From contig CAJXZP010000005.1 in the NCBI GenBank assembly GCA_913062955.1, positions 1 to 64,000 on the forward strand: DNA of 64,000 nucleotides. Direction: 5' to 3'. Below the pieces are notes generated by a model that was not told the origin of the DNA, ran no database searches, and saw only the letters and a list, made by a program, of their open reading frames with translations. This document shows positions 36,541 to 57,225 of the stretch, piece after piece; positions within the stretch are counted from its first letter, which is position 1; the number at the start of each line of letters is the position of its first letter. Position numbers and translations under genes: made by a program. Source of the stretch: an uncultured Flavobacteriales bacterium. Its GTDB lineage: Bacteria; Bacteroidota; Bacteroidia; Flavobacteriales_G; Salibacteraceae.

Positions 36541-36653
36541 GGGGTCGGGCTTTCCGCTATAACTTTTTATTTCCTTTATCACCCTCCAACAAACTTCGGG
36601 TTATTTTGTCAATAAAAAGGATGCCGCTCCTATCCCTAATGCTAAATAGGAGC
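36541..36653. repeat. putative Bacteroidota intergenic palindromic element
   Basis: The stretch opens with GGGGTCGGGCTTTCCGCTAT, holds a long-range inverted repeat CTTTTTATT (36563-36571) / AATAAAAAG (36611-36619), and continues with GGATGCCGCTCCTATCCCTA. A second hairpin (GCTCCTAT / ATAGGAGC) overlaps its end. From memory, this frame (GGTCGGGCT..CCGCTAT, a variable hairpin, GGAT..CCGCT..ATCCCTAA) recurs between genes of many flavobacteria. Only one copy is seen here, so the repeat claim needs the rest of the genome. Confidence 0.4.
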
Positions 36654-36874
36654 AAAAATGGAAATTGCTAGGACGGTGTAAAATCTCAAATTAGTACAAG
36701 ATAATATGGCCCAAGTTGATTTACCCTCTCCAAACAACATCACACATCAGCTGGCTAAACGTATTTTTAATATACTGAGTAAGACCACACTAAAAAAAAG
36801 CATTCTTTTATAGCTGGTTATCAAATAATGCCTTCTTTTACCTTCGCAATTTTGCAATACTTTAATTCTATAAA
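36654..36874. other. gene-poor stretch before the tyrosinase-like gene
   Basis: About 220 bases without a convincing gene. A 35-codon frame at 36706-36813 begins MAQVDLPSPNNITHQLAKRI. It has no family I recognise and no clear start signal, so it could be a gene remnant or chance. TACCTTCG near 36840 resembles a -7 element for the next gene. Confidence 0.35.
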
Positions 36875-39800
36875 ATGAAAAAAATAACTCAATTCACCTT
36901 AATGGCCATTTTATGCCTTTTGGTCAACTCCATTATCGCACAAACTTGACCAAACATTAACAGTTTCAGTCAACCAGACCGTCTAACCTTAGCTACTGCA
37001 ATGCAGACCTATATTGACGCTAACATTCTTCAACAACATGCACTTAACAATATGTTCATTCATGGTGACAATAACATAATTCCATTTCATAAACTTTACC
37101 TAGAAGGGTTAGAAGATTATCTTTTCAAAATTGGTTTAACCCAATTTATTCCTTTTCCATATTGGAATCCCGAGATAGGTCCAATCCCATCCGAATTTTG
37201 GGTAGTGGATGCTGATTGTTCTACATTTTCAAACGCTACTTGCACCAGCCCAACAAGCAATACTCCAAATGCAGGATGGAATACTCAAGTATCTGCTACA
37301 GGTCCATTATGGACCAATGAATGGAACATTTCCCATAACTCTATGAATAATACAACAACATTCCAGTCCTACATTAATCATTGGAAATTTACTCATGGAG
37401 AAGGCCATGTAGCGGTTGGAGGAAATATGGTTGACATGAATTATTCTCCATCATCCCTAGTTTTTTGGTTTTGGCATGCGTACTTAGATAATATAGCGGC
37501 TGTGAAAAATTGCGCTATGAGTTCTTTAAGCATGCCATTTTGGGAATCACCAGGTCTTTCTATGAATGACGCTTTAAATATTAACTATGTATTTGACATT
37601 GGTAACGAACCATCTCAGCATAATTATACAAATCCTGAAGATTGGTATAACAGCCCTGACATATGGGTCAGAAATCAAGCTGATGGAATTGGTAATCAAA
37701 TCCACCAAGCCCCCATTGAAAATGCTGTTAATTACATATATGTGCGCATAAGAAACAGAAGTTGTTTTACACAATCCGGGCATAAACTAAAATTAGGTTG
37801 GGCCAAAGCGACTGCTTCCCTTGATTACCCAATCGATTTTGACAACTCAAGCCCAGATGGATATTTAAATGGAAGTGAATTCACAGTTCAAACTATTCCT
37901 CCCATGGGCCCTGGTGAGTCGTATATTATGGAAATAGCTTGGACCCCCGTAAATTCATTTCAATACATAAATAACTTTGGTGCAAATTTCAATAAATTCA
38001 CCATTTTGGCAATATTAGATGACTATGCTATCCCAAACAATTTCACAGTAACTAATGAAATAGAAGCAATAAATAGTGTCGCTGGGTTAAATATTCAAAC
38101 AACACAACAACAGCCATTAACATTAACCACTTCTGCACCAAACTGTATGGGAACCTGTTCAGGAAGTGTATCTCTTGCCATCAACAACAATGTAAACATC
38201 ACCAATTTTTTATGGAGTGATGGAATATCAGGTACAGGCACTCCACAAAATCGAAATGATTTTTTCCCTGGCCCAGGTTATCTTACTATTTGGATAAATG
38301 GGATAAGTATATCTTATAATTATGATATTAATCCATCAACAACTACCAATTGGCACTCAACTACCGATAATATTAACGGATATGAAGATAAAATCATCAA
38401 AATATTGACTGATAATTCAACACATGACGTTTATGTTTTAGGGGAATTTCAAATAGAGTCTCAAATTTATAATTCAAACTTAAGTTTTGCAACGGGTAAT
38501 ATGAAAACCGGAATTTTCGTGGTGAAATATGATGAATGTGGTAATGAGTTATGGGCTGTACATACCCACAAATCCAATCCAGGATGGGTGGACAGGATGG
38601 AAGCTATTGATATGGTTTTTGTAGGCAGTAATATTCGTGTTTTTGGAAAAACAGATGGTAATGGCCCGTCATTATTTCAATTTATAACTTCCTCCAACGG
38701 AAGTACTGGCAATATTGATATAACTAACGGACAAGCTTTTAGTTCCGACATTTCCTTTTCAGGAAACATTTCAAATCCTCAGACGTATAATTTTCAATAT
38801 TCTGACATAATCCATCAAACAATAATCGATGGAAATGCTACCTATTTTGCCGGTCAATTTTCTGGATATGCTGGCGTAAAAAAATGGGCTAACGGTTCTA
38901 TGACATTAGTTATGGAAGATCTTAACCTAGAAAATGAAATACGAGCAATGGTTTTAAGTGGGTCAGATATTTATGCCGTTGCAAACCTCCAAACGGATGC
39001 CAATTTTGTGGGTGCTGTTACCGTACCGGTATTAGGGCAAACGGAGGCGGTTCTTTTGAAATCAGATGGTGTAACTGTTATTGACATACAACCTGCATAT
39101 GCCAACAATTTCGTACAAGCTACTGACATAGCTAAAGATGCTTATGGAAATTTCTGGGTTTCTGCCCAATTTGATGAAGAGTTACCGGGGTGGCGTACTT
39201 CTAATTCACACATCAGAACAGGAATAGTGGTTAATTTCAATTCAGATTTAGACCCCTTAGAATCCTTTTTCATTAACCCTTCTCTTGTCCATGATTTACA
39301 AGAATCGAGTGCCAATTCTATATCCATTGAAAATGATCAACTCTATGTTGCGGGTACTTTTATTGGGACTGAAATAGTTATTGGAAATTCAAATTATGGA
39401 TTTACCACCCCATCTACCATTTTTGGTTCTAGGTATTCGGCTGATTTATGGATGGCGAAATACGACTTCAACGACCAAATGTTTACTTGGATTGAAGGTT
39501 CTAATTCTTCCGAAGAAGTAGAATTAAATGATATTACTTTTGATGGTATGAATGCATATATGGGAGGAGCATACAAACAAAATATTGACTTCATGAATAA
39601 ATTAGTAAATCTCAATCACCCACAATCGAGTAGCGATTTCTTAGGTTTTGCCATTAGAGGTGGCGACCTAATGTCAGGAGGTGCACAAGGCTTGTATTAT
39701 AAAACCAATGGTAACACCACAACAAATGAAAACAAGGAAGAAGCAATGGATCAAACGACCCGTTTAAGCATATACCCCAATCCAAATGAAGGCACCTTTA

Positions 39801-40006
39801 CCCTATCCTACATTTCGGAAACACTTGGGAACTTGGAGGTGATTATATTTGATCTAACAGGGAGTATTGTTTATCAGGTAATTTCAAATAAGAATTCCGA
39901 GGTAATGGAACAGGAAATTAATTTAAGTCATTTAAGCACGGGAATTTACATGATAAAATCCCAGCAGCATGAAGTGACTAAATACCAAAAAATCATGATA
40001 AAATAA
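36875..40006 (+). pseudogene. tyrosinase-like copper protein with T9SS sorting domain, split by an in-frame TGA
   Basis: The frame starts at an ATG at 36875 with a signal peptide (MKKITQFTLMAILCLLVNSI, then IAQT) and meets TGA at 36947-36949. It then continues open for 1019 codons to 40006. The first downstream ATG is at 37001. Numbered from there, a di-copper tyrosinase domain shows His13, His21, His30 (PFHKLYLEGLEDYL) and His132, His136, His159 (FTHGEGHVAVGG, FWFWHAYLDNI). Then come a C-rich beta segment, propeller-like repeats and a type A sorting domain (LSIYPNPNEGTFTLSY, ending EVTKYQKIMIK). As written the exported form cannot be made unless TGA is read through. The intact remainder suggests a recent mutation, a sequence error or true recoding. 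Confidence 0.75.
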
Positions 40007-40029
40007 CAATTTATAATTGTTAGTAAAAA

Positions 40030-40067
40030 GTGCGACTATCGTTTTATTTCGGTAGTCGCTTTTTTTA
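40030..40067 (+). terminator. terminator of the tyrosinase-like gene
   Basis: The stem GCGACTATCG / CGGTAGTCGC (G-T pairs allowed, loop TTTTATTT) is followed by seven T, 25 bases past the stop. Confidence 0.88.
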
Positions 40068-40165
40068 TGCTTGAAAGACGAGCAATTAATATATACACCT
40101 TTAATTCAAATAACCTAGAAGTCGGAAGACGGAAGTGGTAAAACGAAAACTTTTACAATTCTCCT

Positions 40166-40260
40166 TAGGAGGAGGGGTGGAATCGAACACCGTGAGATTC
40201 AGTGGATTGAAACCGAATTAATAGAATAACTTCCTAAACTTAACAAAAGTGAATCCTCCT
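40166..40260 (-). other. degenerate tRNA-like sequence
   Basis: On the minus strand a perfect 7-bp acceptor-like pair (AGGAGGA at 40260-40254, TCCTCCT at 40173-40167) encloses 80 bases. These include a canonical T-loop string GTTCGATTC followed by CCACC. One G seems lost from the T-stem (GGTG for GGTGG), the D-arm is poor, and no good anticodon stem forms. A loop-like TTTCAAT near 40212-40206 is held by only two pairs. I read it as a decayed long-arm tRNA gene, not a working one. Confidence 0.35.
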
Positions 40261-40503
40261 AACGCCCACCGACAAGGGGGAATTCGCTATTCGTAAAACA
40301 CAAGAAAACAGTCCACAACAAATGCCCATCTTATGGTTTGGATTTGCTAGCTTGTTTTGATTCGATAATTTAAAACCATCTATTTTTCTTGAAACCAGCT
40401 GTATTGCAGCGGTTTTACTATTTCGGTTGATCTGAGATTAAAAAAACATGTTAAGCATCCCCTTCGGCTACACCTACAATTCGTTCTTCCAAATATGCCA
40501 AAT

Positions 40504-40607
40504 TTCTTGGGATTGCTGCGCATTCCCTCTATTTGCCTGTGGGTTTTTAGAAGTAAAGCCTATTCTGCTTGCGCAGAATTTTGGCTTTTTCGTTTAAAAT
40601 TCTCAAG
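40504..40607 (+). repeat. 105-bp direct repeat, copy A
   Basis: This copy matches 40661-40766 at about nine of ten positions. It opens with GGGATTGCTGCGCATTCCCT, passes through GAAGTAAAGCC, and ends in a terminator-like hairpin (stem TTCTGC / GCAGAA, then GGCTTTTTCG). The last third is also shared, inverted, with the sequence downstream of tRNA-Val. Confidence 0.8.
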
Positions 40608-40660
40608 TAAATACTTGTTGACGTGCTTTCGATTACAGCTCCATACCAAATAGATATTCT

Positions 40661-40766
40661 TTCTCGGGATTGCTGCGCATTCCCTCTACTTGCCTGTGGG
40701 TTTTTAGAAGTAAAGCTTATTCTGCTAGCGCAGAATTTCGGCTTTTTTCGTTTAAAAATTCTCAAG
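40661..40766 (+). repeat. 105-bp direct repeat, copy B
   Basis: Second copy of the repeat at 40504-40607. The changes are few and partly compensatory around the hairpin (stem TTCTGC / GCAGAA kept, loop TAGC in place of TTGC), and the T run is longer by one. Confidence 0.8.
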
Positions 40767-49413: not shown

Positions 49414-50892
49414 CTATCTCGATCCCAAACCGGTTGGAGACCCCATTCTATCCATAGCACATCTAAACCCAATATGATCTGTAGATAAATTTTCATCTAG
49501 GAATCTTCTCGAACCTGGATGTAACCAGTAGGCTCTATCTTTCCAAGACCCTCCCTTATATACTCTAGAGTGATCCGTAATTAATGAGGTGACACCATAT
49601 TCATACATTCCACTAGATTCAGGACCTTCCGTAGCTTCCGCTTCTTTCCAAACCGCATCATTTAATTGCGTTTCAAAATCACCATCCAAATAGTTAATGT
49701 TATCTGCTCTTCTGTAATTTCGTCTATCCTTAGCATCTTCAGCTTCAATATCCTGATAAATCATTCGACCTAAAGAATCCTTCTCTGCAATATATCCATC
49801 CTCATCACGAGAAATTTTCTGATATTTGTTCCCTCTGAAGGATCTAAAGTCCGTTTCATCTTCAGCGGTATTTGCTCTATACACATCCATTACCCACTCA
49901 TTCACGTTACCCGCCATATTATACAAGCCATAATCGTTTGGCCAATATTGGTACACAGGCGCAGTTATATCTGCATTATCATTCAACGCACCTGCTAGTC
50001 CCATATTATCACCTCTACCTCTTTTGTAGTTTGCCAACATAGCACCCATGTATGCTTCTTCTGGATTTCTCATCGCATGTCCATTCCAAGGCCATTGTCT
50101 TCTTTCCAAAACATTTTCGCCATAAGAGTTTCCAATCAATCCATATGCAGCATATTCCCATTCCGCTTCCGTAGGTAGACGGTACTTCGGTAAAAGAATT
50201 CCATCTTCCATTTTCACATTTCTGTAACCTGGACTATTTGGACCTTCCCAATCCACCCCATCAGTATTACGATCGCCTTCATACTGGCCATATAAATAGG
50301 CATCGGTATTAAAATTATCATCAGATACTTGATTTGGGTTATGATTATAAAAACCTTCTCTAATCATAATTTGCTCATTCACACGATCGGTCCGCCACGC
50401 ACAAAAGTCAGTAGCTTGCTTCCAACTTACCCCTACTACCGGATAATCTCTGGTAGCTGGATGACGTAAATAATAATCCACATAAGGTTCATTATAGGCT
50501 AATTTATCTCTCCATACTAAAGTATCTGGTAGTGCATTTTCATACACCTCTGGATAATCATCCGCATAAATACGTTTCACCCAATACAAGTATTCCAACC
50601 AATCTAAGTTCTTTACTTCGGTTTCATCAATATAAAAAGAGGAAACAGAAACACGTCTTGGCGTATTTTCCCAATTATGCATTACATCATCTGTAACCCT
50701 CCCCATGGTAAAGGTACCCCCTTCTACCAGAACCAAATTTGGTCCTGTTTCTTGCTCAACAAACGGAGCTTTCTGGAAGTCACCATTCTCTTTATTATCG
50801 TAATCCCATCCAGTTACAGATGACAGTTCATGATTACATGAACTAAGTACCAAAGAAACAGTGGCTAAAGCTAAAATCGTTTTTTTCATCAT
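49414..50892 (-). CDS. gldJ: gliding-motility / T9SS lipoprotein GldJ
   Basis: A 492-residue lipoprotein whose signal ends VSLVLSSC (Cys19). The mature part begins with a short segment (VTGWDYDNKENGDFQKAPFVEQETGPNL..) typical of GldJ and then a formylglycine-generating-enzyme (SUMF1) fold with LVEGGTFTMGR near residue 55, YRLPTEAEWEYAAYG near 237 and YKGGSWKDRAYWLHPGSRRF near the end. In Flavobacterium, GldJ is needed for gliding and for T9SS assembly and lies beside porU and porV, as here. It is about 55 bases downstream of porP and probably transcribed with it. Confidence 0.9.
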   Translation of the reverse strand: MMKKTILALATVSLVLSSCNHELSSVTGWDYDNKENGDFQKAPFVEQETGPNLVLVEGGTFTMGRVTDDVMHNWENTPRRVSVSSFYIDETEVKNLDWLEYLYWVKRIYADDYPEVYENALPDTLVWRDKLAYNEPYVDYYLRHPATRDYPVVGVSWKQATDFCAWRTDRVNEQIMIREGFYNHNPNQVSDDNFNTDAYLYGQYEGDRNTDGVDWEGPNSPGYRNVKMEDGILLPKYRLPTEAEWEYAAYGLIGNSYGENVLERRQWPWNGHAMRNPEEAYMGAMLANYKRGRGDNMGLAGALNDNADITAPVYQYWPNDYGLYNMAGNVNEWVMDVYRANTAEDETDFRSFRGNKYQKISRDEDGYIAEKDSLGRMIYQDIEAEDAKDRRNYRRADNINYLDGDFETQLNDAVWKEAEATEGPESSGMYEYGVTSLITDHSRVYKGGSWKDRAYWLHPGSRRFLDENLSTDHIGFRCAMDRMGSPTGLGSR

Positions 50893-50944
50893 GCTTATTT
50901 TGTTACGCTATAACGCAGCGGTAAAAATAATATTTTATCAAACA

Positions 50945-51928
50945 CTACCAACTCGGACAAGGAAGTCCTCTTCTTCGTGTTCTTTTCTTATGACATTTTA
51001 GTTTCAAACCCAAAGAAATTTCGTGAGCCCCACCGGTATTACCCGATAAATTTGAAACTGTAATATCGTAACTATACCCAAATTTAAAGTTTTCATTCTG
51101 CAACCCAACCAAGGCGATAATAGCATCACCGTTCGGACGGCTATATCTATACCAGAAACCGACTGTAAAAACGCTCATACGTCCATACATCCCTATATTA
51201 AGCTGGCTCGACTCTCCTTGTTTCATGTAAATAACATTAGGAGATACAGAACCCTCTTCCGGGTGACGCTTATCCAATGCCCATGTGGCACCCGCTTGAA
51301 ACGTCAACCTTCTATATAAAGTGGCATCTTGATTCCCAAAAAAACTTTCGGAAGGTTGTGTTAAATGGTGTACTGCTCCACCAATAAACCAATCTTGACT
51401 ATATAATAAAACGCCAGCTGAAAAGTCAGGTGCATTCACATTTTCATCTCCAAAAGGCTCATTTGTGGAATAAATAAACCCGTAACGATCATCTATCATA
51501 TCTCCAAAGGTCAACTCATCCCATTCTAAAGATTTCTGCCAATAAGCAGCTTGACCACCAAATTTCAAGGCTAAATCCCTATTAATTTCTAGCGTATAGG
51601 CATAGGACAATGACGCATTAAACGTTTTTATGGTACCATTAGCCGCATTATCTTGAAACACTTGTACGCCAAGTCCTCCTTTCAAAAACTCCACGTATTG
51701 ATCCGCACTTACACTGTAGGTTGTAAACCCTCCAGGTAATTTAGGCCATTGGTTTCTGTAATTTAAAACAACTCGAGGACAAATTTCTGATCCTGCAAAG
51801 GCAGGATTGGTATATAATGGGTTGGCGTAAAATTGAGAAAACTGCGGGTCCTGAGCAAAAAGACTAGAAACCAATCCCAACGTCATAACCAATACAAGTG
51901 TATAATGATGAATTCCTATTTTATACAT
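50945..51928 (-). CDS. porP: PorP/SprF-family T9SS outer-membrane protein
   Basis: A 327-residue outer-membrane beta-barrel protein of the PorP/SprF family. The signal peptide ends SSLFAQ, then the hallmark DPQFSQFYANPLYTNPAFAG follows, with strands such as LNYRNQWPKLPGGFTTYS. SprF-type members handle type B sorting-domain cargo, while PorP-type members belong to the T9SS core. Which of the two this is cannot be told, though the type B gene at 31 kb would be a fitting client. The C-terminus has an unusual basic end (KCHKKRTRRRGLPCPSW). The ATG at 51928 is chosen over an upstream TTG. Confidence 0.88.
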   Translation of the reverse strand: MYKIGIHHYTLVLVMTLGLVSSLFAQDPQFSQFYANPLYTNPAFAGSEICPRVVLNYRNQWPKLPGGFTTYSVSADQYVEFLKGGLGVQVFQDNAANGTIKTFNASLSYAYTLEINRDLALKFGGQAAYWQKSLEWDELTFGDMIDDRYGFIYSTNEPFGDENVNAPDFSAGVLLYSQDWFIGGAVHHLTQPSESFFGNQDATLYRRLTFQAGATWALDKRHPEEGSVSPNVIYMKQGESSQLNIGMYGRMSVFTVGFWYRYSRPNGDAIIALVGLQNENFKFGYSYDITVSNLSGNTGGAHEISLGLKLKCHKKRTRRRGLPCPSW

Positions 51929-52101
51929 AATTAGATTCAATATTCTTTTTTAGTTGCACGAGGCAAGTATAGCGAATTATTTTTACTTCTGAAACCAATA
52001 TTTTTTATCAAATATAACTTTCGCAATAATTATACTTTACTTTCGTTTTAAAGCCAATCTACGCATATCGATAGCGTTAAAAACCAACAAACAAACGGTA
52101 A

Positions 52102-55100
52102 ATGAAAAAAATATTGTTATTCTCGATTCTCCTTATTTCCACTTTTTCGGCTTTTTCCCAACAAAATGGAATCGAACAAAACAAATCGGGCAAACAAGAA
52201 ATAATTTGGATGGGAACAAGTGACATTTTAGAATTTGACGAAAGTTACTTTACCGTTTTAAATTTCCAGGGTGCGGAATATCAACTTCAAAGCTCCCACC
52301 TACCTTTTCTAAGTAAAACGATTTATGCCTCTCCATCAACTACCTCCGCAACCACCACCATTGTGGTTAAAAGTTCGGAACCTCTAAATGAAAAAGAACT
52401 TCTTGGAATAAACAACGAATCCATTCCTAACACCATTACGGCACAGACCAAAATAACCTGGTATCGCAAAAAAGCGATTGCAACATTTACATTCACACCT
52501 TTATATAAAGATCGGAGTACCGGACAAATTTTTAAGGTGACTTCCTATAGCTATTCCATTCAAGAAAAAGAATCGTTCACCACCAATGCGAAAAGAAGTA
52601 CATTCAAGATCAATTCCGTTCTTCGTTCTGGAACATGGACTAAAGTAGGGACAGTAACGGATGGTATTTATTCTTTATCCTATCAGGATTTACTGAGTTT
52701 AGGACTAAATGTATCGGGAATTAGTTCGAGTTCAATTCGATTCTTTGGAAATGGCGGAGGATACCTACCCTTTCAGAACTCTGAGCCACGATTAGATGAT
52801 TTAGAAGAAAATGCCATTGAGGTAGTGGATGGCGGTGATGGCATTTTTAACGATGGCGATTACCTTTTGTTTTATGGCCAAAGTCCACATCGATGGAAAG
52901 CAGATGGAAATAGATTTAATCATTACCAACATTTCTTTTCTGACACCACTTATTACTTTATTACTATAGATTACAAAATAGGAGCACCCAAGCGAATCAC
53001 AAAAAAGGCCCTCCTTACCACCCCAACAGATATCACGGTAACTACATTTAATGCCCATCAATATCACGAGGTAGATCTGACCAACTTTGTTAAATCTGGA
53101 AGAAATTGGTATGGAGAATCCTTTAGTTTTACTAAAAATCAATCTTTTGGATTCAATTTCCCAAACGCCATTCGAAATACAGCTAACCTAAAATCAAGAC
53201 TCGCATTTAGAGCTATAGGGCGTTCATCCACCTTTACCATGAGCGTGAACGGTACAGATATCCAATCCTTATCTTACCCAAGCATATCGGGACATTATTA
53301 CGAAGCATATGCAGGTATTAAGTCTGGAGTATCCAGCTTCACCTTACCCAGTGCTAATTTTTCATTGGATGTTAACTTTAGTAACCCGAGTTCATCCGAT
53401 AACGGATGGATCGATTACTTTGAAATTAATTGCGAAAGAGCCTTAACACTTTCCCAATACCAAATGCCCTTTCGGAATTTAAGCTCCATAAACCCAGGAG
53501 TGATTCAATATAACTTATCCGGATCAAACTACAGAATATGGAATGTAACGAGCCCAACCAACGTTTATGAAAACACCCTCAGCGGAAACACCCTAAAAGA
53601 AAATGGCGGTCAGCTCAACCAGTTTGTTGCATTTACCAATGGCCAGTATCTTAGCCCTGTAAAATTTGGTATGGTACCCAATCAAGACCTTCATGGACTT
53701 CAGCCGGTAGATTATGTCATCATTACCCACCCTCTTTATATATCTCAAGCGAACCAACTCGCCAATTTCCATCGAACCCACAGCAAACTCTCTGTTCATA
53801 TTGTAACGACTCAGCAGATTTACAATGAATTTTCCAGTGGTTCACAGGATATCACGGCCATAAAGATGTTCAACAAAATGTTATACGACCGTGCAGGTAG
53901 TGATCCGGATAAAATGTTACGTTACGTATTGTTATTAGGAGATGGTTCATACGACTACAAAAACAGAAAACCCAACAACACCAACCAAGTACCTTCCTAC
54001 CAATCAAGCAACTCAGAAGCCCCATTGTCATCCTATGTTTCGGACGATTATTTTGGTTTCTTAGATAACAATGAGGGGGATGCCTTAAATTCAACTTTGG
54101 ATATAGGAATTGGACGAATAATGGCTAAAAACGTAATCGAAGCCCAAAACATTATTGATAAGACCATTCATTATATGTCCTCCCCGAATCGCTTTTCTGC
54201 CTTTCGAAATAGGCTCACCTTTGTTGGAGATGACGAAGATGGCGTAACACACATGGACCAATCCGATCAATTGGCTCGAAAAATTGATACCAACTATGGT
54301 CAATTCAATATTACAAAAATCTATTTGGATGCCTATCAACAAGTAAGCAACGCTGGCGGCAGCACATATCCAGATGTAAATACGGCTATTGATAATGCCA
54401 CAGAAAAAGGAAGTATGATCATTAATTATACGGGTCATGGGGGAGAATTAGGATGGACTCATGAACGGGTCTTAGGTCTTTCCCAAATAAACAATTATAA
54501 AAACATAAATACATTGGCATTGTACGTCACTGCCACCTGTGAGTTCAGTCGATTTGATGACCCTGATAGAACATCTGCTGGGGAGTACACCCTATTAAAC
54601 CCAAACGGAAGTGCACTAGGCTTATTAACCACTACACGGCTAGTATATTCCACTCCCAACTTTGCTTTAGCACAACGATTTTTCGATGCCGCGTTTGAAA
54701 AAATTGATGGCGATTGGCCACGACTAGGAGATTTATCCAGGATATCCAAAATAAACGGAAGCAGTATTAATACCCGAAATTTCACCATGTTAGGAGATCC
54801 CGCAGCACAGTTAGGATATCCGGAATACAGAATACAAACCACCAGTACCCCTGACAGTTTAAAGTCGTTACAAAAAATCACCATCTCGGGTGAAATCACG
54901 GATGATCTCCAACAAAAAATAACTAATTTTAATGGCACTGTTTACCCCACCATCTATGGCCAAAAGAAAAAACAAACCACATTAAATAATGATGGCTATG
55001 GGCCTTTTGAATTCGAAACCCAGGAAAACGCACTCTTTAAAGGGAAGGCTTCGGTAATCAATGGAGAATTTACATTCTCATTCATTGTACCAAAAGATAT

Positions 55101-55875
55101 CAATTTCAAATATGGGTATGGGAAAATTAGCTATTACGCTGAAAACGGATCTACAGATGCCAGTGGCTTCGATAATTCTATAATAATTGGAGGAATAGAT
55201 GGCGACCCAAATTTAGATCAAACAGGCCCGACTATTGATTTGTGGATGAATGACGAATCTTTTGTTATGGGAGGTTTAACCGATGAGAACCCTTTATTAT
55301 ATGCCAAAGTTTTTGACGAAAGTGGTATCAATACGGTAGGTAATGGGATCGGTCATGATATTGTTGCGGTCATTGATGAAAACACAGCAAACCCTATCAT
55401 ATTGAATGATTATTATGAAACCGAATTAGACTCTTATAAAAAGGGCTCCATATCTTATAACCTTTCCAACCTATCTGAAGGAAAACACACTTTACGACTC
55501 AAGGTTTGGGATGTTTACAATAACTCCCAAGAGGCAGTAACGGAATTTGTGGTGAGCAAATCATCCGGTTTCCAAATCGACCATGTTTTAAACTACCCGA
55601 ATCCCTTTACCACCAATACGGACTTTTACTTTGACCATAATGCGATCGGACAACAATTAAAAGTACGGATTCAAATTTTCACCGTTAGTGGCAAATTAGT
55701 CAAGACTATTGACCATGTTGACAACTCGGAGAGTTTTAAAGTAGGTCCAATAAACTGGGACGGTCGAGATCAATACGGAGATCGAATTGGCAAGGGAACA
55801 TACGTATATCGGGTCAAAGTGACCAATGCTTTTGACCAGACCATAGAAAAGTTTGAAAAAATTGTTATTCTCTAA
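52102..55875 (+). CDS. porU: T9SS sortase PorU (gingipain-like C25 peptidase)
   Basis: A 1257-residue outer-membrane sortase that removes the C-terminal sorting domain of T9SS cargo and joins it to the surface anchor. A signal peptide (ending FSAFSQ) is followed by a long N-terminal region and the C25 peptidase domain (about 540-900) with His779 in YTGHGGELGW and Cys813 in VTATCEFSRFDDP. Beta domains follow, then a C-terminal sorting-like domain (LNYPNPFTTNTDFYFD). It is divergent from porP and gldJ and directly upstream of porV, its partner. The 1257-residue length is normal for Bacteroidota PorU. Confidence 0.94.
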   Translation: MKKILLFSILLISTFSAFSQQNGIEQNKSGKQEIIWMGTSDILEFDESYFTVLNFQGAEYQLQSSHLPFLSKTIYASPSTTSATTTIVVKSSEPLNEKELLGINNESIPNTITAQTKITWYRKKAIATFTFTPLYKDRSTGQIFKVTSYSYSIQEKESFTTNAKRSTFKINSVLRSGTWTKVGTVTDGIYSLSYQDLLSLGLNVSGISSSSIRFFGNGGGYLPFQNSEPRLDDLEENAIEVVDGGDGIFNDGDYLLFYGQSPHRWKADGNRFNHYQHFFSDTTYYFITIDYKIGAPKRITKKALLTTPTDITVTTFNAHQYHEVDLTNFVKSGRNWYGESFSFTKNQSFGFNFPNAIRNTANLKSRLAFRAIGRSSTFTMSVNGTDIQSLSYPSISGHYYEAYAGIKSGVSSFTLPSANFSLDVNFSNPSSSDNGWIDYFEINCERALTLSQYQMPFRNLSSINPGVIQYNLSGSNYRIWNVTSPTNVYENTLSGNTLKENGGQLNQFVAFTNGQYLSPVKFGMVPNQDLHGLQPVDYVIITHPLYISQANQLANFHRTHSKLSVHIVTTQQIYNEFSSGSQDITAIKMFNKMLYDRAGSDPDKMLRYVLLLGDGSYDYKNRKPNNTNQVPSYQSSNSEAPLSSYVSDDYFGFLDNNEGDALNSTLDIGIGRIMAKNVIEAQNIIDKTIHYMSSPNRFSAFRNRLTFVGDDEDGVTHMDQSDQLARKIDTNYGQFNITKIYLDAYQQVSNAGGSTYPDVNTAIDNATEKGSMIINYTGHGGELGWTHERVLGLSQINNYKNINTLALYVTATCEFSRFDDPDRTSAGEYTLLNPNGSALGLLTTTRLVYSTPNFALAQRFFDAAFEKIDGDWPRLGDLSRISKINGSSINTRNFTMLGDPAAQLGYPEYRIQTTSTPDSLKSLQKITISGEITDDLQQKITNFNGTVYPTIYGQKKKQTTLNNDGYGPFEFETQENALFKGKASVINGEFTFSFIVPKDINFKYGYGKISYYAENGSTDASGFDNSIIIGGIDGDPNLDQTGPTIDLWMNDESFVMGGLTDENPLLYAKVFDESGINTVGNGIGHDIVAVIDENTANPIILNDYYETELDSYKKGSISYNLSNLSEGKHTLRLKVWDVYNNSQEAVTEFVVSKSSGFQIDHVLNYPNPFTTNTDFYFDHNAIGQQLKVRIQIFTVSGKLVKTIDHVDNSESFKVGPINWDGRDQYGDRIGKGTYVYRVKVTNAFDQTIEKFEKIVIL

Positions 55876-55905
55876 TACCATGAACCAATAAATAGCGTTA
55901 ATCGC

Positions 55906-55913
55906 TATATTTG
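55906..55913 (+). promoter_or_regulatory. -7 element upstream of porV
   Basis: TATATTTG, an exact match to the Bacteroidota -7 consensus, lies 20 bases before the porV ATG. porV may therefore have its own promoter besides read-through from porU. No clear -33 TTG is seen. Confidence 0.4.
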
Positions 55914-55932
55914 CCAGTCATATTTGTATCGA

Positions 55933-57225
55933 ATGAAATTAATTACATCATATACTACGTTTTGTTTATCTGGATTACTGCTCGTTTCTACGACCGTTTT
56001 TTCTCAAAACAGACAAAACACAATTACCACAGCAGTTCCATTTTTAACCATCACCCCAGATGCACGTCACGGAGCCTTAGGTGGTGCAGGTGTCGCTACA
56101 AGTCCGGATGTATATGACAACTTCCACAATGCGGCCAAATTAGCATTTATGGAAGAGGAATCCAGTTTAGGACTTTCTTACACCCCATGGCTCGGAGCAT
56201 TAGTTCCGGGCATTAGTTTATCGTATTTGGCGGTAACGAAGAAAATTGACAAGATGTCGGCTATTGGGGCATCCTTGCGATACTTCTCTTTAGGCGAAAT
56301 TCAGTTTACCGATGAATTTGGAAACAATACGGTAAACCACAATCCCAATGAATTTGCCTTGGATGCGGCCTATTCTAGAAAACTTGCAGATCAGTTTTCC
56401 ATGAGTATTTCTTTACGATTCATCTATTCCAACCTTACTGGTGGGCAATCCGTAGGGGGGGCAGATACCAAACCTGGATTAGCAGCTGCATCAGATATCA
56501 TGATGTATTATCAAAATGACAATATTAGATTAGGAGATAAAGATGCCACCTTAGCTATTGGTGGGGGATTTAGCAACATTGGTAATAAAATGACCTATTC
56601 GGACATTAATCAGCAAGATTTTTTACCCATGAATTTTAAGGTGGGAAGTGGACTAACCATGCACCTAGATGAATACAACGATTTTTCATTTGTTTTTGAT
56701 ATGAACAAATTACTTGTTCCAACTCCTCCCATTTACGGAAAGGTAAATGGTTCCACGCAAAACACTTTAATCGCAGGTAAAGATCCCAATCGAGGAATTG
56801 CAAATGCCATTTTTTCAAGTTGGTCGGATGCTCCTGGAAATCCAATAAAGGACAATACAGGTGCCTATATTGTAGATGCGGACGGAAATGCTGAAATTGA
56901 AAAAGGAAGTGTTTTCAATGAAGAAATGAGAGAGCTTTATTTCAGTTTCGGAATGGAATACTGGTACAACAAAGTATTTGCTGCAAGGATGGGATATTTT
57001 ACTGAACATGATACCAAGGGAAATAGAAAGTATCTATCTTTTGGAGTAGGATTAAAACATAATGTTTTTGCCATTGACATTTCTTACCTCGTACCATTTT
57101 ACGTGGGGGGGCAAGTTTCTTATGGGCAATCTCCACTAGCAAATACACTCCAGTTTACCATGTCATTTGCTTTTGATAAAAGCAAATCTTCCGGTTCATC
57201 TGAGTCATCATCTGATTCATTTTAA
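55933..57225 (+). CDS. porV: T9SS outer-membrane shuttle protein PorV
   Basis: A 430-residue FadL-like beta-barrel (PorV, also called LptO or PG27) that takes cargo from the translocon to the PorU sortase. The signal peptide ends STTVFSQ and is followed by the hallmark FLTITPDARHGALGGAGVAT and PDVYDNFHNAAKLAF. The C-terminus is FTMSFAFDKSKSSGSSES.., a serine-rich tail. It lies 58 bases after porU. The ATG at 55933 is chosen over a TTG nine bases earlier, since it starts the signal peptide. Confidence 0.95.
   Translation: MKLITSYTTFCLSGLLLVSTTVFSQNRQNTITTAVPFLTITPDARHGALGGAGVATSPDVYDNFHNAAKLAFMEEESSLGLSYTPWLGALVPGISLSYLAVTKKIDKMSAIGASLRYFSLGEIQFTDEFGNNTVNHNPNEFALDAAYSRKLADQFSMSISLRFIYSNLTGGQSVGGADTKPGLAAASDIMMYYQNDNIRLGDKDATLAIGGGFSNIGNKMTYSDINQQDFLPMNFKVGSGLTMHLDEYNDFSFVFDMNKLLVPTPPIYGKVNGSTQNTLIAGKDPNRGIANAIFSSWSDAPGNPIKDNTGAYIVDADGNAEIEKGSVFNEEMRELYFSFGMEYWYNKVFAARMGYFTEHDTKGNRKYLSFGVGLKHNVFAIDISYLVPFYVGGQVSYGQSPLANTLQFTMSFAFDKSKSSGSSESSSDSF

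Follow-up and report, generated by a model that had tools for sequence, protein, structure and literature searches.

The locus and the exported protein it encodes

On the forward strand of the window (the whole 64,000-nucleotide stretch that was analysed), the ATG at 36875-36877 opens a signal-peptide coding segment of 24 codons (36875..36946; MKKITQFTLMAILCLLVNSIIAQT, ending in ...IIAQT), which is followed by an in-frame TGA at 36947..36949, with C as the base immediately 3' of the stop. Beyond it, translation continues through 1018 sense codons to a TAA at 40004-40006, and read-through of the TGA would fuse a 27-codon open segment with this 1018-codon frame. The stop is the sole lesion across 3.1 kb of tyrosinase-like gene. 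Under translation table 11, the longest ATG-initiated ORF starts at the first same-frame ATG 3' of the stop (37001..37003, forward strand) and comprises 1001 amino acids with no signal peptide, so that a restart product would presumably lack an export signal. The initial annotation had described an ATG opening a signal peptide, a TGA followed by C, a frame open for more than 1000 codons thereafter, a gene otherwise intact and the loss of the export signal in the absence of read-through; sequence and translation bear out this description, with the frame, the six copper-binding histidines and the sorting domain all whole.

The tyrosinase (type 3 copper) domain occupies 37040..37498 on the forward strand and is identified by stretches matching the Pfam Tyrosinase family (PF00264; 39.8 bits against a cut-off of 22.6), by PDB sequence matches, the closest of which are Streptomyces tyrosinases, and by fold matches. 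Counted from 36950, its CuA histidines are H30, H38 and H47 (37037-37039, 37061-37063 and 37088-37090, spanning 37037..37090, forward strand), and its CuB histidines are H149, H153 and H176 (37394-37396, 37406-37408 and 37475-37477, spanning 37394..37477, same strand). All six fall in columns that are invariant or at least 90% conserved (alignment A4, 33 sequences), in agreement with the earlier description of a six-histidine di-copper domain. The NCBIfam MelC2 model gives a weak match only (21 bits against an equivalog cut-off of 450). The predicted domain structure is confident in parts only (mean pLDDT 59.7), and its core alone was used for comparison; the leading Foldseek matches are nearly all tyrosinases, though with E-values of 0.01 or worse. 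At the C terminus (39770..40003, forward strand), the T9SS type A sorting domain that had been noted earlier is recognized above cut-off by both Pfam (Por_Secre_tail, PF18962; 51.3 bits, cut-off 27) and NCBIfam (TIGR04183; 43.3 bits, cut-off 23). Between the two domains, a segment with the pattern DIWVR..HQ.P...YVRVRNR (37592..37930, forward strand), over which the Pfam scans placed no family, is common to other secreted proteins and not tied to tyrosinases; it recurs in many otherwise different secreted proteins of the phylum, such as the trypsin-like protease L022. Without regard to the stop, the predicted product is a large exported tyrosinase-like, copper-enzyme protein.

A group of T9SS/gliding genes lies at 49414-57225 and encodes a GldJ-like lipoprotein (just under the cut-off), a PorP/SprF-type protein (256 bits), PorU (1315 bits) and PorV (428 bits). 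Given these genes, the host has parts of a T9SS.

To assess the signal peptide, all 1155 segments of the window, on either strand, that open with ATG and run for 24 codons or more were put through a test demanding a basic n-region, an equally hydrophobic core and a cleavage motif before Q. Seven segments pass: the one at 36875 and six that start exported-looking proteins, two of the six being nested starts of one gene. These include PorU and S8-type protease, OmpA-type and TonB-dependent-receptor-like proteins, whose names, PorU excepted, were taken from reading the translations. In relatives of the gene, signal peptides colinear with that of the window occur at the same distance from the tyrosinase domain and precede the same conserved stretch (MKRYNIARIALLASLIIPTLLNAQVRPDINSF in L185, ...AAAAAFAGDRPDIYSF in L095 and ...SSAISSAGHRPDIYSF in L187). 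Judged by these comparisons, the predicted signal peptide upstream of the TGA is not a product of chance. Since the relatives place it identically, the upstream ATG is taken as the true gene start, with the stop lying inside the gene.

The residue at the stop and the relatives of the gene

An alignment of the read-through frame, with X at the stop, and 71 tyrosinase homologues has a residue at the stop column in 68 of the homologues, and in 67 of these it is Arg; the sole exception is an Asp in a poorly aligned row. The homologue pattern v-R-k-n-v-x-s-L aligns with T-stop-P-N-I-N-S-F of the window. The four closest relatives, which form a subfamily with the window gene (L095, L185 from G517, L187 from G882 and L188 from G762), all carry the conserved Arg directly 3' of the signal peptide, as in AQ-V-R-PDINSF compared with AQ-T-stop-PNINSF in the window. 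Their Arg codons vary (the three read are CGG, AGA and CGC), and both AGA and CGA are one substitution away from TGA. No stop occurs at this column among the aligned tyrosinase homologues or the subfamily relatives, and neither Cys nor Sec was found there in the relatives, which have Arg instead. The initial annotation had proposed a single TGG-to-TGA change of a Trp codon, to be checked by aligning homologues; that alignment yields Arg, free of gaps, and lends no support to Trp as the original residue. With Arg in this column, a Trp inserted through near-cognate decoding of UGA would fail to bring back the ancestral residue.

A random substitution in the 1018-codon frame has a chance of about 4% of introducing another stop. 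Because none is present, the age of the lesion can be capped at about 2-2.6% neutral divergence; three further stops would be expected at roughly 2.2-2.6% neutral substitutions per site, if the gene had drifted freely since the stop arose. The absence of further stops also speaks against an old decaying gene. Such a lesion-free frame would fit a recent nonsense allele, an error in the consensus or selection acting through read-through.

The gene is the only tyrosinase gene in its genome, a 131-contig draft that is 95.8% complete. When 42 genomes of the order were searched at the protein level, no further copy of the tyrosinase domain turned up; the matches in relatives fell on a different shared segment, and thus none of these genomes supplied a close relative with the stop position open. 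Close relatives were likewise absent from genome contigs and viral contigs by single-sequence scan, from viral contigs by alignment scan, and from plasmids. In the same-genus genome G001, whose mdh protein is 95% identical to that of the window genome, mdh is directly followed by tRNA-Val and a folC-type gene, without the tyrosinase block of about 3.9 kb (36562..40509 on the forward strand of the window, boundaries approximate). Present in one copy, and lacking in G001 where the site is otherwise syntenic, the gene is dispensable in the lineage. Its presence there is variable, and either gain here or loss in G001 would fit. A 97-nt intergenic direct repeat (40503-40599 and 40660-40756, 91% identical) lies beside tRNA-Val, where the missing block ends on the right; G001 has one counterpart.

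The subfamily relatives share architecture with the window protein beyond the tyrosinase domain. One of them, L095 (JADLCX010000089.1), comes from a Phycisphaerales genome and matches with 29% identity over 418 residues, an occurrence that suggests transfer of tyrosinase-like genes between phyla; its protein has the same downstream segment and lacks a recognized T9SS tail. The G517 relative (L185:1589-3979), 37% identical to the window protein, is open over about 800 codons, with no frameshift seen, save for two stops: a TAA after VPLPY, at the Trp of a PYW motif in homologues, and a TAG after LSYPSH, at a position that is Trp in the otherwise unrelated protease L022 sharing the downstream segment. 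These two different in-frame stops suggest that the gene is dispensable, and since the stops differ in place between copies, they point to loss of a dispensable gene rather than to a conserved recoding signal. Stops are thus carried by two of the five subfamily copies found. The copies together make up a small, patchy subfamily of large exported tyrosinase-like proteins, present in this phylum and in a Phycisphaerales genome; a literature search on T9SS tyrosinases yielded nothing useful.

Decoding of UGA

Stop-codon use was surveyed over about 178 kb in total, made up of the window and about 114 kb from other loci of its own genome. TGA terminates five of the 102 ORFs with 150 or more codons in this sample and is the rarest stop there, a low share that, at the window GC of 38%, agrees with the reported fall in UGA stop use at high AT (PMC4989110). 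This rarity might be taken to favour UGA as a sense codon, either for selenocysteine or through genome-wide reassignment, as might the incomplete set of recovered tRNAs. Against this, prfB (RF2) is present with its classical frameshift site (AGGGGG TAC CTT TGA C), so that UGA is a working stop here, and some genes do end in TGA. No second gene bridged by TGA was found in the window or in the other loci surveyed, and the other TGA joins in the window either extend a segment briefly upstream or downstream or lie in frames outside genes; reassignment of the code 4 type is accordingly rejected. Selenocysteine is rejected as well, given Arg rather than Cys in the homologues and no tRNA-Sec above the gathering score of 47, the best match (35.6 bits) lying at a tRNA-Leu site. 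No UCA anticodon occurs among the recovered tRNAs, a weak test since tRNAs for Trp, Lys, Thr and Tyr were not recovered. The probability that UGA is a sense codon in this genome is therefore regarded as negligible.

In functional read-through, some ribosomes would pass UGA-C and so produce the complete exported enzyme, perhaps to control its dose. UGA leaks more than the other stops in bacteria, with read-through of 10^-2 to 10^-3 in Salmonella and E. coli (PMC4989110), and shortening the anticodon stem of tRNA-Trp can boost UGA read-through in E. coli (PMC13092985); the intact frame 3' of the stop is also in keeping with it. However, none of the homologues carries a stop in this column, the conserved residue is Arg and not Trp, which is the usual near-cognate insertion, no other gene in the loci surveyed is bridged by TGA, and folding of the 120 nt 3' of the stop does not surpass that of shuffled sequences (z-score 0.23). 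With no stop in relatives and no stimulating RNA structure, conserved programmed read-through is rejected, and functional read-through is considered improbable. More doubtful still is the specific idea that the UGA is under selection and leaks usefully, giving a small, tuned dose of exported tyrosinase from the position at which relatives have Arg. Overall, no sign of recoding at this TGA is apparent from the available sequences.

A probable nonsense change in an accessory gene and its comparison with known systems

The simplest reading of the lesion is a point change that inactivated the gene recently (or an error in the consensus), and not a new mode of decoding. The initial annotation had left the choice among a recent change, a sequence error and real read-through; that set of options is supported, and the evidence ranks them in this order. 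An accessory gene for an exported tyrosinase-like protein was probably interrupted, immediately 3' of its signal-peptide segment, by a recent nonsense point change. The codon for the conserved Arg that opens the mature protein would have mutated to TGA, whereupon ribosomes would mostly release a 24-residue peptide, and ordinary UGA leakiness or restart at 37001 could still yield a little product. A restart product, having no Sec signal, could presumably not use the T9SS. In the sampled strain the gene thus probably has little or no function. Against a recent nonsense change, nothing besides the stop points to a loss of function, the frame, histidines and sorting domain being intact, and in the 131-contig draft, which may be a population assembly, the stop could reflect an erroneous consensus or a minority allele.

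An error of consensus or assembly, or a minority variant fixed by the assembler, is accordingly the next reading to be weighed, under which the real gene would encode a normal exported tyrosinase-like protein. Such an origin would account for a single lesion of one base with all else intact, and the draft state and completeness of the genome are compatible with a population assembly. Substitution errors are, however, rare in deep short-read consensus sequences, and the nonsense codons of the G517 copy indicate that other genomes carry such alleles of the gene; an error is seen as rather unlikely, though second in probability. The recent nonsense change remains the preferred explanation. The case is mainly a clean negative, in that homologues turn an apparent instance of Trp/UGA recoding into a nonsense change at an Arg codon, and the analysis also reveals the small, scattered subfamily described above.

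Compared with bacterial tyrosinases of PF00264 (Streptomyces MelC2 and that of Bacillus/Priestia megaterium), which include its top PDB hits by both sequence and fold, the window protein is alike in the six copper histidines, the HxxxH CuB motif and the colinear domain start. Unlike them, it has about 1000 residues, is predicted to be exported and carries extra domains and a T9SS tail; it has FWFWHA where the usual tyrosinases have FWLHHA, and its gene has a stop codon after the signal peptide. With T9SS type A cargo (TIGR04183/PF18962), the gene shares an upstream Sec-type signal peptide, a C-terminal sorting domain and the proximity of PorU, PorV, PorP/SprF-type and GldJ-like genes. In contrast to such cargo, signal peptide and cargo are parted by the TGA: the signal peptide lies in frame upstream and is cut off from the translated protein. 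Ordinary nonsense alleles, or early pseudogenes, of accessory genes provide the closest parallel, as the window gene likewise has a single in-frame stop and is absent from the nearest relative compared (G001), and no observed feature separates it from them.
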